NCBI GenBank assembly: GCA_016931415.1
Contig: JAFGEW010000112.1
Span: 1-64,000 of the forward strand
Length of the DNA: 64,000 nt
DNA from: Verrucomicrobiota bacterium
Lineage (GTDB): Bacteria > Auribacterota > JABMQX01 > JAFGEW01
Direction: 5' to 3'
Shown: piece by piece, positions 45,378 to 60,529 of the stretch
Numbering within the stretch: position 1 is the stretch's first letter
How the letters are laid out: every line of letters starts with the position of its first letter
The notes under the pieces: generated by a model
Database searches by the model: none
Told to the model about the DNA's origin: nothing
The model's input: only the letters and a program-made list of their open reading frames with translations
Position numbers and translations under genes: made by a program

Positions 45378-46964
45378 TCAGGCGTAGCAGCGGAAGTCGA
45401 TATCGGGGAACAGGTTGTCCTTGTGCTCGAGATCGGCCAGGTAGCCCTCGTCGATCCGGTCTGTTCTGATCTGATGGTAGAGCTTGGTGAACCGGCCGAT
45501 GTGGTCCTTGGTGCGCTTGACGGCGTACTCGACCACCGTCCCACCCTTCATGATGAACGCCCAGTCGCTCGCTTGCGCCAGCAGCAACTCCCGCGCCGCC
45601 TGATTAAGCGCCCGGCGAAACAGCCCGTTGTCGCTGTTGCGGAACCGCCGCGCGAGCTCGACCATCCGCTCGGCTCCCTTGGTCAGGTGCAGGTAGATCC
45701 AGTCGTTCGAGCCTTCGAGCCATACCTCGCTATAGCCCTTCCAGCCCCAGCTCGACATCGACGGCGTCGAGACCTGATTCCTCGGGTTGGCCTTGAGGTA
45801 CTCCATCGGGGTGATCGCTGAGATACTTGTCTGGTCGAAGTAGAGCTTGCGGAACAAGAACTCGAGCCACTCCGGCCCTTCGTACCACCAGTGGCCGAAC
45901 AACTCGGCATCGTATGGCGCGACGATGATCGGCTTGCGCCCCATAAACCCGTGAAGGAACTCGGCTTGCTTCTCGCGGTTGAACATGAAGTTTCCCGCGT
46001 GCGAGGCGGCCTTCTCGCGTGCCATGGCCGGGATGTACGGCTCCTTGTGATCGCCCTGGCCCGTGATACGGTAGTACTTGATCCCCGTCATCTTGCGGAT
46101 GCCGAGGTGGTGGATGTACGGGCGGATATAATCGTAGTCGAGATCGAATCCGACGTCGCGGTAGAAGTCGCGGTAGTAGTAGTCGCCCGGATAGCCCTCC
46201 TGCGCGCTCCAGACCTGCTTCGAGCTCTCGAGGTCGCGCCCGAACGCCGCCACGCCGCTCGGGCAGAAGATCGGCGCGAACACCCCGTACTTCGGGCGCG
46301 GCGTGGCGTGGAGCACGCCGTGCGCGTCGGTGAAGAAGAACTTGATCCCAAACTCGCGCAGCACCTCGTCGATGCCCGGCTCGTAGCCGCATTCGGGTAA
46401 CCAGATACCGTTGGGCCGGCGGCCGAGATACTTCTCGTGATGCTCCACGGCCGTGGCAATCTGCGCGCGGACGGCGTTCACATTCACCGCCATGAGCGGC
46501 AGGTAGCCGTGCGTGGCTCCGCAGGTGAGGATCTCGAGCTTGCCCAGGTCGAGGAACCGGCGGAACGCCTCGACCAAGTTGTGGTGGTACTGCTCGGCGA
46601 ACACGTGGCGCACGCGCGTGAGCTTGTAGTGGTACATGAGCGCGAGTTCGTTGAACTCGGGCTGCCAGCGCGTGCGCTCCACCTCGCGGCTCGCCAGCTC
46701 GATGAGCTTGTCGAGGTGCCGCAGCAGCCGGTACTGGAGGAGCGGATCGACCAGCATCGACAGCAGCGTCGGTGAAAGCGACATCGTGAGCCGGAAGTCC
46801 ACCCCGTCGTTGACGAGCCGCTCGAACGCCTCCAACAGCGGCACGTACGTCTCGATGACCGCCTCGAAGAACCAGTCTTCCTCAAGAAACTCGTCGTGTT
46901 CGGGGTGCCGCACGTACGGCAGGTGCGCGTGCAGAACGAGAGTTAGATAGCCGTGTTCTCCCAT
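45378..46964 (-). CDS. GH57 (DUF1957) 1,4-alpha-glucan branching-type enzyme
   Basis: 528 residues from the ATG at 46964. GH57 motifs are intact: HAHLPYVRHPE (12-22), CGATHGYLPLM (about 148-158), the nucleophile Glu191 in IWLPECGYEPG, and the acid Asp352 in APYDAELFGHWWYEGPEWL. The C-terminal helical domain (TPSMSSWGWKGYSEVWL, then SNDWIYLHL) matches DUF1957-type members, several of which are branching enzymes of glycogen-like polymers. The DUF4912 gene follows upstream in the transcription order, an association seen in other candidate phyla. Whether this one branches or hydrolyses glucan cannot be told from sequence. Confidence 0.88.
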   Translation of the reverse strand: MGEHGYLTLVLHAHLPYVRHPEHDEFLEEDWFFEAVIETYVPLLEAFERLVNDGVDFRLTMSLSPTLLSMLVDPLLQYRLLRHLDKLIELASREVERTRWQPEFNELALMYHYKLTRVRHVFAEQYHHNLVEAFRRFLDLGKLEILTCGATHGYLPLMAVNVNAVRAQIATAVEHHEKYLGRRPNGIWLPECGYEPGIDEVLREFGIKFFFTDAHGVLHATPRPKYGVFAPIFCPSGVAAFGRDLESSKQVWSAQEGYPGDYYYRDFYRDVGFDLDYDYIRPYIHHLGIRKMTGIKYYRITGQGDHKEPYIPAMAREKAASHAGNFMFNREKQAEFLHGFMGRKPIIVAPYDAELFGHWWYEGPEWLEFLFRKLYFDQTSISAITPMEYLKANPRNQVSTPSMSSWGWKGYSEVWLEGSNDWIYLHLTKGAERMVELARRFRNSDNGLFRRALNQAARELLLAQASDWAFIMKGGTVVEYAVKRTKDHIGRFTKLYHQIRTDRIDEGYLADLEHKDNLFPDIDFRCYA

Positions 46965-47043
46965 GGGCTCACGACACACTCAGGCTACGTCCATTCCGGG
47001 TTTCGTCACGCAGAAGGGCCTCACGAACGTTAGTCGACCTGGC

Positions 47044-48294
47044 CTACCGGCGTGCAACAGTCCGCTCGCTCGATGTGGTCTTGCGTGACACGACGGGCGT
47101 GATCGTGCGCTCCTCACTGCCGTCGGCCGACGTCGCTACGGTCTCGATCTCCTGGAGCCCGTCGGGCAGCGCCATGCGAACCGTGAACGTCCCATCGGGC
47201 CGCAACTTCACCGGCCGGCCCTGCATCGTGACCGTTGCGTCCGGCTCGGTGGCGCCATAGACGATCAGCTCGCAATCGAGTGTGAACCAGAAGCCGCTTA
47301 CCTTCTCAGCCTTCATGAGCGGACTGGCGCCGAAGCTCGACACCATGCCGGATGCCCCACCCGCCTGGAGGCGGCGGTGCATCTCGCTCACGAGCTCGGC
47401 CGAACTCCGGCCTATCTCGAGCCCACCGGAGAGCGCATACATTTTCTCGTAGAAATCGTCGATCTCCATCCACTCTTCGTCGAGCACGCTCGACATGCCG
47501 TCGCGCGGCGTCGCCGCTATATTCGAGCGCGCCAGCACGAAGAAGTCGTTCTCCGGCGAGACACGTCCGATGTCGACGACCCACGACCGGTTCGGATTGC
47601 CGGCGTGGATGTACCAGCTCGAGGCATTGCCGCTCAGCTCGATGTCGAACGACGCGTGTGCGTTGGTGCCGTCAAAGTCCACGGCCGTCACGTCGTAGAC
47701 GCGGAGCACCGAGCGCGTCCGCTCCCAGCGGTCACCGAAGTGGGCCGCCGCCTCGCCCAGCCGGTCGGGCGACACTTCCCAGAAGCTGTGCAGCCACCAC
47801 GGGTCGCGCGCAAGCAGCACGATGAAGCTTCCGCCGTAGCGCTCCGGCAGCGCCTCGATCGGCGCCTCGGCGGCCCGCGGCATCTCGGGTCCGTGGAATT
47901 TCGCCTCCTCTACCCGTTCCTTCACCGTGCGCCGTGAGCGCTCAACCGCCTCGGACAAGATCCGGTGGCGCAAGCTTGCGCGAGCCGCGATCGCTTCTTC
48001 CGTCTCTCTCGACAGCTTCGGCCGCGCCTCGGTCGTGCCGGTTTTCCTGGCCGTTTTCTTGACCGCCTTCTTGGTCCGGGGGTCCTTCTTCAGGCTCTTG
48101 TTCCCAGTCATCGGCTGGGAGAGGGGCGCCTTTTTTGAGGCAGACGCCTGCTTCTGACTCGCTCCCTGCTTCGGGGACACGGTCTTCCCGCTTGGCGTTG
48201 CCTTCTTGGCTGGCTTTGCTGATTGCGCTGTCTTTTTCTTGCTCATTGTCTCATCAGACACCGAGGCCTTCGTAATCCTTCTCTTCGTGGCCAT
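47044..48294 (-). CDS. DUF4912 protein with a basic Lys/Ala-rich N-terminal tail
   Basis: 416 residues from the ATG at 48294 with AAGGAG upstream. The first 90 residues are highly basic and low-complexity (KKKTAQSAKPAKKATPSGKT), like histone-H1-type tails. The DUF4912 domain spans about 135-260, with FIVLLARDPWWLHSFWEVSP, LRVYDVTAVDF and SWYIHAGNPNRSWVVDIG. A C-terminal strand-rich segment (TLDCELIVYGATEPDATVTM, GRPVKLRPDGTFTVRMALPD) follows. The DUF is linked to glycogen-type GH57 genes in several lineages; a carbohydrate-related binding role is inferred from that linkage and its W-rich surface. Confidence 0.85.
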   Translation of the reverse strand: MATKRRITKASVSDETMSKKKTAQSAKPAKKATPSGKTVSPKQGASQKQASASKKAPLSQPMTGNKSLKKDPRTKKAVKKTARKTGTTEARPKLSRETEEAIAARASLRHRILSEAVERSRRTVKERVEEAKFHGPEMPRAAEAPIEALPERYGGSFIVLLARDPWWLHSFWEVSPDRLGEAAAHFGDRWERTRSVLRVYDVTAVDFDGTNAHASFDIELSGNASSWYIHAGNPNRSWVVDIGRVSPENDFFVLARSNIAATPRDGMSSVLDEEWMEIDDFYEKMYALSGGLEIGRSSAELVSEMHRRLQAGGASGMVSSFGASPLMKAEKVSGFWFTLDCELIVYGATEPDATVTMQGRPVKLRPDGTFTVRMALPDGLQEIETVATSADGSEERTITPVVSRKTTSSERTVARR

Positions 48295-48347
48295 CGAGAT
48301 GACTCCTTGTGGAGGCCCAGAGATCGGGGCCATGCATCTCCACAACC

Positions 48348-57411: not shown

Positions 57412-57440
57412 TTGAATTCCGCACCGATGTGTGCTATATG
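57412..57440 (+). promoter_or_regulatory. Promoter of the aromatic leader
   Basis: TTGAAT (-35), exactly 17-base spacer, TATATG (-10) preceded by TGC, forming an extended -10. Transcription would start near 57447, just ahead of the leader ribosome-binding site GAGGGG. Confidence 0.6.
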
Positions 57441-57461
57441 AGAGACATTGTGAGGGGTCGT

Positions 57462-57548
57462 ATGTTCGCGTTGAACGTACAGCGTAGCGGTTACTATTTC
57501 GGCTTTTGGTGGTGGTACGCCTCCGGCGTGCCCGCTGCCGACCGCTAG
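57462..57548 (+). CDS. Aromatic-rich leader peptide of a transcription attenuator
   Basis: 28 codons from an ATG with GAGGGG 5-6 bases upstream. It opens MFALNVQRSG and continues YYFGFWWWY, eight aromatic residues in nine, including three Trp codons in a row at 57507-57515. The start MFA, the WWW run and a following PAA resemble the trp leader of Streptomyces as I recall it. Ribosome stalling at the aromatic codons would sense charged tRNA-Trp, -Phe and -Tyr. Immediately downstream are a terminator and a competing antiterminator. The peptide itself probably has no function beyond regulation. Confidence 0.7.
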   Translation: MFALNVQRSGYYFGFWWWYASGVPAADR

Positions 57549-57581
57549 GCCCCGAAGGACTGGTTCAGGCCGCGAGCACGC
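57526..57581 (+). promoter_or_regulatory. Antiterminator pairing of the aromatic attenuator
   Basis: GCGTGCCCGC at 57526-57535 can pair with GCGAGCACGC at 57572-57581 (nine of ten positions). The second strand is the 5' half of the terminator stem, so the two structures exclude each other. A ribosome stalled at the Trp codons leaves the first strand free; a ribosome at the stop codon (57546) covers it. Confidence 0.6.
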
Positions 57582-57608
57582 TGAGGTGTTCGCGGCCTTT
57601 CTGTTTTT
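57567..57608 (+). terminator. Attenuator terminator
   Basis: Stem GGCCGCGAGCAC (57568-57579) with GTGTTCGCGGCC (57586-57597), twelve pairs including one G-U, extended by an A-T pair, with a six-base loop, then TTTCTGTTTTT. A textbook intrinsic terminator, 19 bases after the leader stop codon. Confidence 0.85.
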
Positions 57609-57704
57609 CCGCGAACGCCAGAGCACATCGGCAGCCTCTGAAGACGCCGTGCCCGCGGCCTTGGAAGCACTGGCCGAGGCCATCGAAAGATAGGGGACAG
57701 GCAG

Positions 57705-58340
57705 ATGAGCAGGATCGTGACCTACGAGACGGATCCCGGAGGTGGTATCCCCCCGGCTGTGGCGGGCGCTGAGGATGAGACGCCCATCCTCGTTCTGGGC
57801 GGGCCCGCGAAGAAGGCGCTCGGGCACTTGGCGGGCTCTGCTCAGCGCGGGATCGTCTGGCCGGGGCCTGAACGCTCCGGTGTCGCCGTGATGTCGGTCG
57901 AGGCAAGCTCCGAGCTGGTGCGGCTCACGCGCGTGATTGTCTCGGCGCTGACCATGGGCGGCAACGGCACCGTGGCCGCCATGATCGAGGCGATGGAGAA
58001 GGAAGAGGCCAAGCCGGAGAAAGGTTTCTCGTCACCGCTGCAGGAGGCCGTCTTCTTGCTCCTGCTGCGTCCTCGCGTCCTGCGCGTCCGGCCGTCAAAA
58101 CGCCACCTCGGACCCCTCATGCAGGATCTCGCCAAACGCCTTCAAGTCCTTCTCAGAATGAAGGTTGCCGCTCCGCGCGTGATCGTTCTTACCTCGACGA
58201 ACGGCACGGCCCACGCCGAACCGGAAGCCGACGAAATGGAGTCAGAAAGCACCAGCACCGGCCAGCTCGGCCCACGCGACATCTACCGCGAAGTTCTCGC
58301 CCGTGTCCGCGCCGCGCTCACCGCCCGGACAACAGGGTAG
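57705..58340 (+). CDS. Protein of unknown function behind the aromatic attenuator
   Basis: 211 residues from the ATG at 57705 with AGGGGACAGG upstream, 96 bases past the terminator. The N-terminal 60 residues are strand- and Gly-rich (ETPILVLGGPAKKALGHLAG); a helical region follows (VAAMIEAMEKEEAKPEKGF, MQDLAKRLQVLLRMK) with an ILV-rich segment AVFLLLLRPRVLRV between. The C-terminus is acidic. I do not recognise a family and see no link to chorismate, Trp, Tyr or Phe enzymes. As the only plus-strand gene before convergent transcription, it is the apparent target of the attenuator, unless the regulated gene was lost. Confidence 0.55.
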   Translation: MSRIVTYETDPGGGIPPAVAGAEDETPILVLGGPAKKALGHLAGSAQRGIVWPGPERSGVAVMSVEASSELVRLTRVIVSALTMGGNGTVAAMIEAMEKEEAKPEKGFSSPLQEAVFLLLLRPRVLRVRPSKRHLGPLMQDLAKRLQVLLRMKVAAPRVIVLTSTNGTAHAEPEADEMESESTSTGQLGPRDIYREVLARVRAALTARTTG

Positions 58341-58432: not shown

Positions 58433-59008
58433 CTAGTGGCTCAACGTCGTCTGCGCTAGGCTCTTACGGACCCGGAAGAACATCAAGCAGGACGCGAGGC
58501 ATGCCAGTGTAAGGCTAGGGACCGGCAGTTCGGGCACAGGGGGCAGTTCGGCAATGATTGTGTAGCCCCAGAACCCTATGTAGCCCATCTCCGGGGCACT
58601 CGGTTGGTTCGTGTTCTCGATCCACCACGCGACATCGCTCTCGACGAATGTCGGGTAGCCGTCCAGGATCTCGATCGTGGCGAACGCGAAGGACTGGAAC
58701 TCGGTCACGTGCCACGACCATTCGGGCGCGCCCGGCGCGAGCCAGTCGCGGTTGATGCCGTCCGCGCCGGCCTCGATCGCGGCCACCACGATCGGGTCGC
58801 CGACCGCCTCCGGTCCGAGCGTGATGAGGTCGCGGGCGTGCTGGATGTCCAGCGGGCGCTGGATCGGCACCACGTACGAGTCGCCGTAGATCTCCTGCCC
58901 CGGCCATTCGCCAACCACGAAGTACACGGTCTCGGCGAGAACCGGCTTGGCGGCAAGCCCGATCAGACCGGCTGCCAGCGCCGTGAGCAGCAAGCGAAGA
59001 CCCTTCAT
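58433..59008 (-). CDS. Secreted protein with a PEP-CTERM-like C-terminal anchor
   Basis: 191 residues from the ATG at 59008 (GGAGAGGGATC upstream). A signal peptide (LRLLLTALAAGLIGLAAKPV) precedes a domain with ETVYFVVGEWPGQEIYGDSY, LDIQHARDLITLG and DGINRDWLAPGAPEWSWHVT. The C-terminus has VPELPVPSLTLACLASCLMF and then FRVRK: a VPEL-type motif, one hydrophobic helix and a basic tail, resembling PEP-CTERM or related exosortase sorting signals. No exosortase gene is in the window. The N-terminal domain is unrecognised. Confidence 0.7.
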   Translation of the reverse strand: MKGLRLLLTALAAGLIGLAAKPVLAETVYFVVGEWPGQEIYGDSYVVPIQRPLDIQHARDLITLGPEAVGDPIVVAAIEAGADGINRDWLAPGAPEWSWHVTEFQSFAFATIEILDGYPTFVESDVAWWIENTNQPSAPEMGYIGFWGYTIIAELPPVPELPVPSLTLACLASCLMFFRVRKSLAQTTLSH

Positions 59009-59276
59009 TGATCCCTCTCCGAACCCCGTTTGGCCTGCACGCCGTGAATCGGTTTGAGAGACAGGAGTAATCACCTGTCCCTAGCACGAGACCTCGGCAT
59101 CGTCCAGAGACGAAATGGGCGGGCACTGGGCGTTTCTGATCGAGAAGCTTCTCGCCCCGAGCCGCGCCGAGAGCCGACGCATGACGGGCAGTGGACGCGG
59201 CGTCCCCCGATTCAGCCAACTGCAACTGGACCCGACGGCGCTGCCGGCGAGCTTGTTCGTCGGTCCTGCTCGCGTC

Positions 59277-60146
59277 TCACGCGCATCCCGCGATCCGATC
59301 CTCCAAAGCATACCGCCTGGCTGCTCGGGCAACGCGGTCCCGGATCTGCGCCAGGTACGCTTCGCGCACCTGGCCATCGAACAGGATCCGCCTGTATTGC
59401 TCGTACAGGCCCGGGAACTCCTTGCGCAGGAGACTCGCCACAGCAGGCCACACCTTGGGCCTGGGATTGAGCGCGTCCACCCAGATCAAGTCAATCGCCA
59501 GGTCGGCGGCCCGCTCGAGCATCGAGTCAATGGCGGCCTGGCTGTCCGACAGGAACGGCAGCAGCGGGCCGAACATGACGGCCGTCTTCAGCCCTGCGCG
59601 TTGCGCTTCCTTGATGACCCGGAATCGCTCCTCCACGCTCGAGCATCCAGGCTCCCAGAGCTGCCTCAGACGCTCGTCGAGCGTGGTGACGGTCACCCCA
59701 ATCTGCGCTCGTCGTCCCGAAAGGATGTCGAGATCGCGCAGCACGAGCGCGCTCTTGGTCAGAACGTCCACGTGGAATCCGCACATGAGCAACAGCTCGC
59801 AGCAGCGGCGCGTCAGTTTCCGCTCGGTCTCGATCGGCTGCCACGCGTCGCACGCGCTGCTGACGAAGACATGACCCGGCCTTGCACGCCGCAGTTGCCG
59901 TTCGAGCGCTTCCACCGCGTTGACCTTGATGTCCACGAACTCACCCCATGGCTCCGCATGGGGATGGAATCGCTGCATGAAGCGCGCGTAGCAGTAGACA
60001 CAGCCGTGCGCGCAGCCGGTGTAGCAGTTGAGGGAGTAGTCGCTGATGGAGCTCCGATTCAGGATCGTCTTGCAGGCCGCCTCGCGCACGACGATTCTGC
60101 GCGGTGCGCTCATCCCGCCGTCGGCAGCTCCGTTGTGTGTCAGCAT
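59277..60146 (-). CDS. Radical SAM protein related to spore-photoproduct-lyase-like (Rv2578c-type) proteins
   Basis: 289 residues from the ATG at 60146 (GCGGAG about 10 bases upstream); an ATG 11 codons later is possible. The iron-sulfur motif is SLNCYTGCAHGCVYCYARFM, containing C-x3-C-x2-C. Further segments FVSSACDAWQPIETERKLTR, VLTKSALVLRDLDIL and VTVTTLDERLRQLWEP are typical of the COG1533 group (SplB-related). These enzymes use SAM radicals; most members lack a proven reaction. No DNA-repair neighbour is visible, so a lyase activity should not be assumed. Confidence 0.87.
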   Translation of the reverse strand: MLTHNGAADGGMSAPRRIVVREAACKTILNRSSISDYSLNCYTGCAHGCVYCYARFMQRFHPHAEPWGEFVDIKVNAVEALERQLRRARPGHVFVSSACDAWQPIETERKLTRRCCELLLMCGFHVDVLTKSALVLRDLDILSGRRAQIGVTVTTLDERLRQLWEPGCSSVEERFRVIKEAQRAGLKTAVMFGPLLPFLSDSQAAIDSMLERAADLAIDLIWVDALNPRPKVWPAVASLLRKEFPGLYEQYRRILFDGQVREAYLAQIRDRVARAARRYALEDRIAGCA

Positions 60147-60529
60147 CAGACGAACTCCGCGCTGGAAGTCAGTCAGGTGAACGCCACCTACGCGGGGTGG
60201 TTCCCGCCCCGCGACGCGCTCCGTCCTCTCGATCCGCGCCTCGTGAACGCCAGAATGACCGGGGCATCCCCAAGCCTGCAAGGCTGCCGGCGGAAGCGCA
60301 GACCCGGCCGACACAGAGCCATAGCCCGCTTGCGGCAGCGTCGGGACTGGCCGAACTGCTTGACGCACTGCCCGTCTCGTTCCATGGACGGCCGTATGGC
60401 CTTGTTCTGCAGCGGCCGGTTCGTGGTCTCGTGTGGCGCGAAGATCGTTAGATCCGTTCTGCGCGCCGGTCTCAGTACGGACAGAGTGTGGCGCAGGTCG
60501 TGGGACAAGGCAAGAGCAGACCGTGTCAT
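60147..60529. other. Intergenic stretch without a convincing gene
   Basis: Between the radical SAM gene and the ImmA-like fragment. The frames present are basic and Cys/Arg-rich without a ribosome-binding site or family resemblance. It probably contains the radical SAM gene promoter; no hexamers stand out. Confidence 0.35.

Follow-up and report, generated by a model that had tools for sequence, protein, structure and literature searches.

Background

Leader-peptide systems were recorded in a 2010 survey as known in Proteobacteria and Actinobacteria only, and the survey added the Firmicutes (PMC2965389). In the trpL/rnTrpL leader of Sinorhizobium meliloti, consecutive Trp codons are followed by an antiterminator segment and then by an intrinsic terminator. 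The same order of parts is found in the DNA described here, a stretch of 64,000 nt (the window) that represents positions 1-64,000, forward strand, of contig JAFGEW010000112.1 from Verrucomicrobiota bacterium GCA_016931415.1 (GTDB lineage Bacteria; Auribacterota; JABMQX01; JAFGEW01). Unlike the window unit, rnTrpL controls trpE(G) (PMC7298713), its control codons are for Trp only, and its leader peptide has 14 aa.

At Rfam gathering thresholds the window displays only tRNAs, and the thresholds of Trp_leader (RF00513), Phe_leader (RF01859) and RcsR1 (RF02552) are not reached. The best leader-like match is a full-length one to RcsR1, but its 20.6 bits fall far short of the cut-off, which is 60. 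RcsR1 is transcribed from the position of rhizobial rnTrpL, the attenuator RNA of trpE(G) (PMC7143759).

The unit in the window consists of a leader and a single gene, at 57705-58340, which is referred to as the orphan; the next gene downstream is convergent. To our knowledge, attenuation by leader peptides is undescribed in this phylum. The unit is read here as a ribosome-mediated attenuator that probably senses a shortage of charged aromatic tRNA and controls the orphan (probability roughly 0.7).

Leader open reading frame and candidate promoter

The leader peptide open reading frame, MFALNVQRSGYYFGFWWWYASGVPAADR* (57462-57548, + strand, as are all features of the unit), extends over 28 codons from an ATG at 57462 to a TAG at 57546-57548. 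A Shine-Dalgarno-like GAGGGG is present at 57452-57457, 4 nt 5′ of the ATG. The control codons, YYFGFWWWY, are at 57492-57518 and are aromatic in eight of nine positions, and the frame has a positive score by codon usage. By its predicted translation, the leader is a short frame in which codons for the putatively sensed amino acids are clustered. An earlier note on this DNA had described both the ribosome-binding site and the 28-codon leader with its aromatic run, and both are found in place.

Upstream is a candidate sigma-70-type promoter with an extended -10 (57412-57440), with the putative -35 TTGAAT at 57412, a spacer of 17 nt and TGcTATATG at 57435. The extended -10 promoter with 17-base spacer previously proposed is thus present as a sequence, but it matches the consensus at only 8 of 12 positions, lacks the conserved last T, and was not reported by a consensus promoter scan that required at least 9 of 12. 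The promoter is the weakest element of the unit.

To estimate chance, a null set of 418 copies of the window, generated by a second-order Markov model and amounting to 26.8 Mb, was searched. Small open reading frames with five aromatics in nine codons were found 114 times and those with six were found four times, but none had at least seven. A single aromatic frame of the null set, with five of nine, was followed by a strong terminator, as compared with eight of nine plus a terminator in the real leader.

Terminator and alternative pairings

The intrinsic terminator (57567-57608), which lies between the leader and the structural gene, begins 18 nt past the leader stop codon. It has a stem of 13 bp (57567-57598) with the loop GCTGAG and a U-tract at 57599-57608 (tail TTCTGTTTTT), and a folding energy of -26.7 kcal/mol. 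The strong terminator of the earlier note was also found independently by a terminator scan.

Two further pairings compete for the same RNA. Strand 1 (57507-57521), made up of the WWW codons plus one codon each for Tyr and Ala, pairs in the minimum free energy structure with 57525-57540; this 1:2 hairpin thus includes the WWWY codons and is equaled by 9 of 500 shuffled sequences. Strand 2 (57524-57540) is a partner of either strand 1 or strand 3, the latter being the 5′ arm of the terminator (57568-57583). In the 2:3 pairing, CGGCGUGC.CGC.GCC (57524-57539) is opposite GGC.GCG.GCACGCUG (57568-57583), and the duplex has 14 bp, two 1x1 mismatches and -27.5 kcal/mol. In two runs of dinucleotide shuffling, 8 and 5 of 2000 sequences matched it in strength. 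No comparable pairing with the terminator arm is seen for the more upstream portion of the leader (1060 of 2000 shuffles). Thus the alternative pairing with the 5′ terminator strand that had been noted is real and is longer than was stated, and the classic attenuation geometry proposed with it is supported by a full 1:2/2:3/3:4 set that is stronger than first described. The entire leader RNA has a folding energy of -85.4 kcal/mol (z = -4.6).

Stalling of the ribosome was simulated with a footprint edge 13 nt past the A-site. For a simulated stall at any of the three Trp codons, the 2:3 antiterminator is the structure adopted by the nascent RNA as far as strand 3, at -29.8 to -32.4 kcal/mol. 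When the simulated ribosome stands at the stop codon, it covers strand 2, and the terminator alone remains. By folding and shuffling, the antiterminator and the terminator are predicted to be mutually exclusive, the choice being set by the position of the ribosome, with the control codons in strand 1. In equilibrium folding the terminator is the more stable structure at every simulated ribosome position once strand 4 exists, and therefore antitermination would have to be kinetic. For the E. coli trp leader, too, the outcome has been depicted as a race (PMC1183508).

A segment nearly identical to strand 2, termed strand 5 (57645-57662), is found 3′ of the terminator. In read-through RNA it may form a duplex with strand 3 (-26.9 kcal/mol, 9 of 2000 shuffles), perhaps by chance.

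It could be argued that the whole arrangement is accidental, i.e., that a terminator of the usual kind happens to stand beside a short aromatic frame or to close a small gene for a membrane protein. The weak promoter match and the failure to find a conserved homologue would fit such an origin. However, 26.8 Mb of shuffled sequence gave nothing equally aromatic, the 1:2 and 2:3 pairings are each significant and aligned with the control codons, and trpE leaders of similar type are found elsewhere in the phylum. Chance is therefore considered a very improbable source of the unit.

Another reading is that the product acts in trans, either as a standalone RNA (the terminated transcript of ~155 nt) or as the 28-residue aromatic peptide. 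It has a precedent in rnTrpL/peTrpL of Sinorhizobium (PMC7298713, PMC7143759), and the top leader-like Rfam match, although weak, is to RcsR1, the rnTrpL locus. Yet when the leader RNA was compared by crude pairing with 135 translation-initiation regions, trpE was at rank 67 and the DAHP synthase genes were at ranks 26, 71 and 122, and a complete antiterminator in cis would be superfluous for such a role. A function in trans is thus improbable.

Leader-terminator units elsewhere in the phylum

The DNA around trpE-type (PF00425) and DAHP synthase (PF00793) genes of the phylum was scanned. In one genus, here designated g3, trpE units are found in eight genomes. Their leaders have the form M.(T/A)K.N(N)FWWWYAF.GLFQAG...PRS (...NFWWWYAFTG... 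is an example) and, with a 15-bp terminator, are situated directly 5′ of trpE; CAAGCCGGG is able to pair with CCCCGCUUG in the terminator arm. In addition, DAHP synthase leaders of the NFGYWFYFYFTELSQAGGTLS type (GYWFYFYF-type) are found at six g3 loci, and these, like the trpE leaders, are accompanied by a strong terminator. The presence of leader-terminator units at both trpE and DAHP synthase indicates, at the level of sequence, that leader-peptide attenuation of aromatic genes occurs in this phylum. When four g3 loci were tested against Rfam, none exceeded a cut-off, and the best leader match was to Phe_leader, 28.2 against 55 bits.

The g3 units resemble that of the window in having a short open reading frame that contains a run of aromatic codons (at trpE, FWWWYA), a terminator at a short distance from the stop codon (24-34 nt in g3, 18 nt in the window) and an alternative pairing that occupies the 5′ terminator arm. 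They differ in the ..GLFQAG.. or ..ELSQAG.. tail of their leaders, which the window leader lacks, and in their position before aromatic biosynthesis genes. The similarity between the window and g3 DNA is restricted to ~17 nt of control codons, and a common descent of these units is possible.

Phylum-wide, WWWY runs followed by a (G/T)CN codon are found only in the g3 trpE leaders, in the window and at chance sites that have no terminator. The exact leader motif has no other occurrence in 84,980 species genomes. Sequences of the phylum that come close to it were rejected, as they are inside or antisense to unrelated genes or are without a terminator. No locus homologous to the combined leader and orphan was found in the genomes searched.

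Aromatic loci of the source genome

The source assembly is 4.06 Mb in length and 98.9% complete, and its nearest relative among the genomes compared shares only the class. The window is not contaminating or foreign DNA by its GC content and tetranucleotide profile, which agree with the remainder of the assembly (r 0.94-0.97). Flanking repeats were sought as signs of a mobile element and none was convincing.

An aromatic leader with a terminator is absent from the two PF00425 loci of this genome (C93 and C19) and from its three PF00793 loci (C99, C31 and C49). The trpE gene on C93 begins 6 nt after the preceding gene. The trpE product of this genome (L016:9485-10966) has no Trp in 493 residues, which is consistent with low cognate bias. 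All WWWY sites of the genome, together with most runs of six aromatic-like codons, were checked for a second leader, and none is followed by a terminator. WWWYWY and YWWYWY runs elsewhere in the genome were dismissed, since they are within long protein frames. Thus the putative attenuator in the window is the only unit of its kind found in the genome, and it precedes the orphan.

The orphan gene and its surroundings

The orphan (57705-58340, + strand) encodes 211 aa, has a ribosome-binding site of its own, and is the presumed regulated target. Its coding score by codon usage is +46.6, while the tested antisense and alternative-frame open reading frames of the region score below 0. Profile searches of Pfam, PHROGs, NCBIfam and PADLOC show no match to the protein, and the gene thus stays unrecognised, as in the earlier note. 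Without a family match, it cannot be placed among genes of aromatic biosynthesis, aromatic transport or tRNA synthetases. Matches in the PDB to Shank PDZ domains (E 0.08) and to TrpRS (E 0.26) are at chance level. Homologs were absent from 44 genomes of the phylum and from the phages, plasmids and viral contigs searched, and a search of 84,980 genomes that reaches close relatives only detected no close relative. Among 384 genomes, tblastn gave three weak matches of 16-18 bits (E 0.003-0.01); two of them contain internal stops, and all three were regarded as noise. A single-sequence AlphaFold model of the protein is unusable (pLDDT 33).

The composition of the protein is unusual in that only 5 of its 211 residues are aromatic, a single Trp and two each of Phe and Tyr. 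This is the second lowest aromatic content among 125 called genes, as against a pooled 7.4%; the binomial P of 1.4e-3 is a post hoc value without correction. A low aromatic content is expected, by low cognate bias, in proteins made during aromatic shortage (PMC4209129). The aromatic poverty of the orphan, noticed after the fact, fits production under aromatic scarcity and is supportive of it, not proof.

The scan of ~35 window proteins did not reveal a trp, aro, phe or tyr gene, in agreement with what had been noted before. The convergent neighbor of the orphan (58433-59074, - strand) codes for a protein that looks secreted and has a BP74_N domain (E 1.4e-13), in which a hydrophobic segment is followed by a basic tail, as in a C-terminal sorting signal. 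The gene at 59277-60368 (- strand) encodes a radical SAM protein that is close to two families, PA0069/Rv2578c and mobile pair B, with scores well below the cut-off of either. Elsewhere in the window, at 45378-48345 (- strand), a GH57 branching enzyme adjoins a DUF4912 protein with a glucodextranase-B-like stretch, which suggests an alpha-glucan locus.

Proposed mechanism

Classic ribosome-mediated attenuation appears to be the best reading of the unit, because of the full 1:2/2:3/3:4 geometry and the g3 units at trpE and DAHP synthase. The sensed signal would be Trp foremost, with Tyr and Phe. When aromatic amino acids are plentiful, the ribosome would reach the leader stop codon at 57546 and cover strand 2, whereby the 3:4 terminator would form and transcription would end near 57605. 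With Trp or Tyr in short supply, it would stall on WWWY and mask strand 1; strands 2 and 3 would then pair ahead of the synthesis of strand 4, and the polymerase would read into the orphan. We infer the transcription start (near 57447), the stalling, the read-through and the role of the orphan as functional target. A separate promoter within the 106 nt between the terminator stem and the orphan is also possible.

The main rival to a regulated orphan is that the attenuator is a detached relic, which once served trpE or another aromatic gene until a rearrangement split the operon, so that the orphan is downstream by accident and is expressed otherwise. The absence of leaders from the trpE-like and DAHP synthase loci of this genome, when g3 has units at both genes, keeps this option open. 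The trpE start close behind another gene also speaks for it, as does the lack of an aromatic link in the downstream gene. However, all parts are intact with no decay visible, and the orphan, with a ribosome-binding site of its own, is strikingly aromatic-poor and begins within a short distance of the terminator stem. Given how little of the g3 sequence is shared, ancestry in common with the trpE units is possible at most. The detachment of the attenuator is therefore thought unlikely.

A live target is favored because the intact parts are followed by a single gene that has its own ribosome-binding site and encodes an aromatic-poor protein. The two options of the earlier note, a new member of the aromatic regulon or a detached attenuator, are thus both kept, the second as the weaker. 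Tentatively, the orphan may be a non-biosynthetic member of an aromatic-starvation regulon, nearly free of aromatics and made only when aromatic-charged tRNAs are short.

Comparison with known attenuators

The codons of a leader state its signal, and the attenuator would therefore tell when the orphan gene is needed, which is rare for orphans. The units described here, which precede trpE, DAHP synthase and an orphan, belong to a phylum that has been sampled only sparsely and may extend the range of leader-peptide systems. Together, the window and g3 units provide an opportunity to ask if an attenuator can pass from one gene to another. The locus appears to carry a switch of a familiar type that has either gained the orphan as its target or been left with it.

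The principle is common to the window unit, the E. coli trp attenuator (RF00513) and the Phe leader (RF01859), in that the codons are in strand 1 and the 1:2/2:3 and 3:4 structures are mutually exclusive. Unlike these leaders, the window has mixed Tyr, Phe and Trp codons and a putative target that is no known biosynthetic gene. The trp and trpS attenuators of Actinobacteria (PMC1262725) are similar to the window in their double or triple UGG codons, GC-rich terminators and poly-U tracts; they differ in that their targets are the trp operon or trpS and their control codons are for Trp only. Thus the window unit would work like an attenuator of the trp/phe type, the structural features of which, so far as they can be read from DNA, are present.
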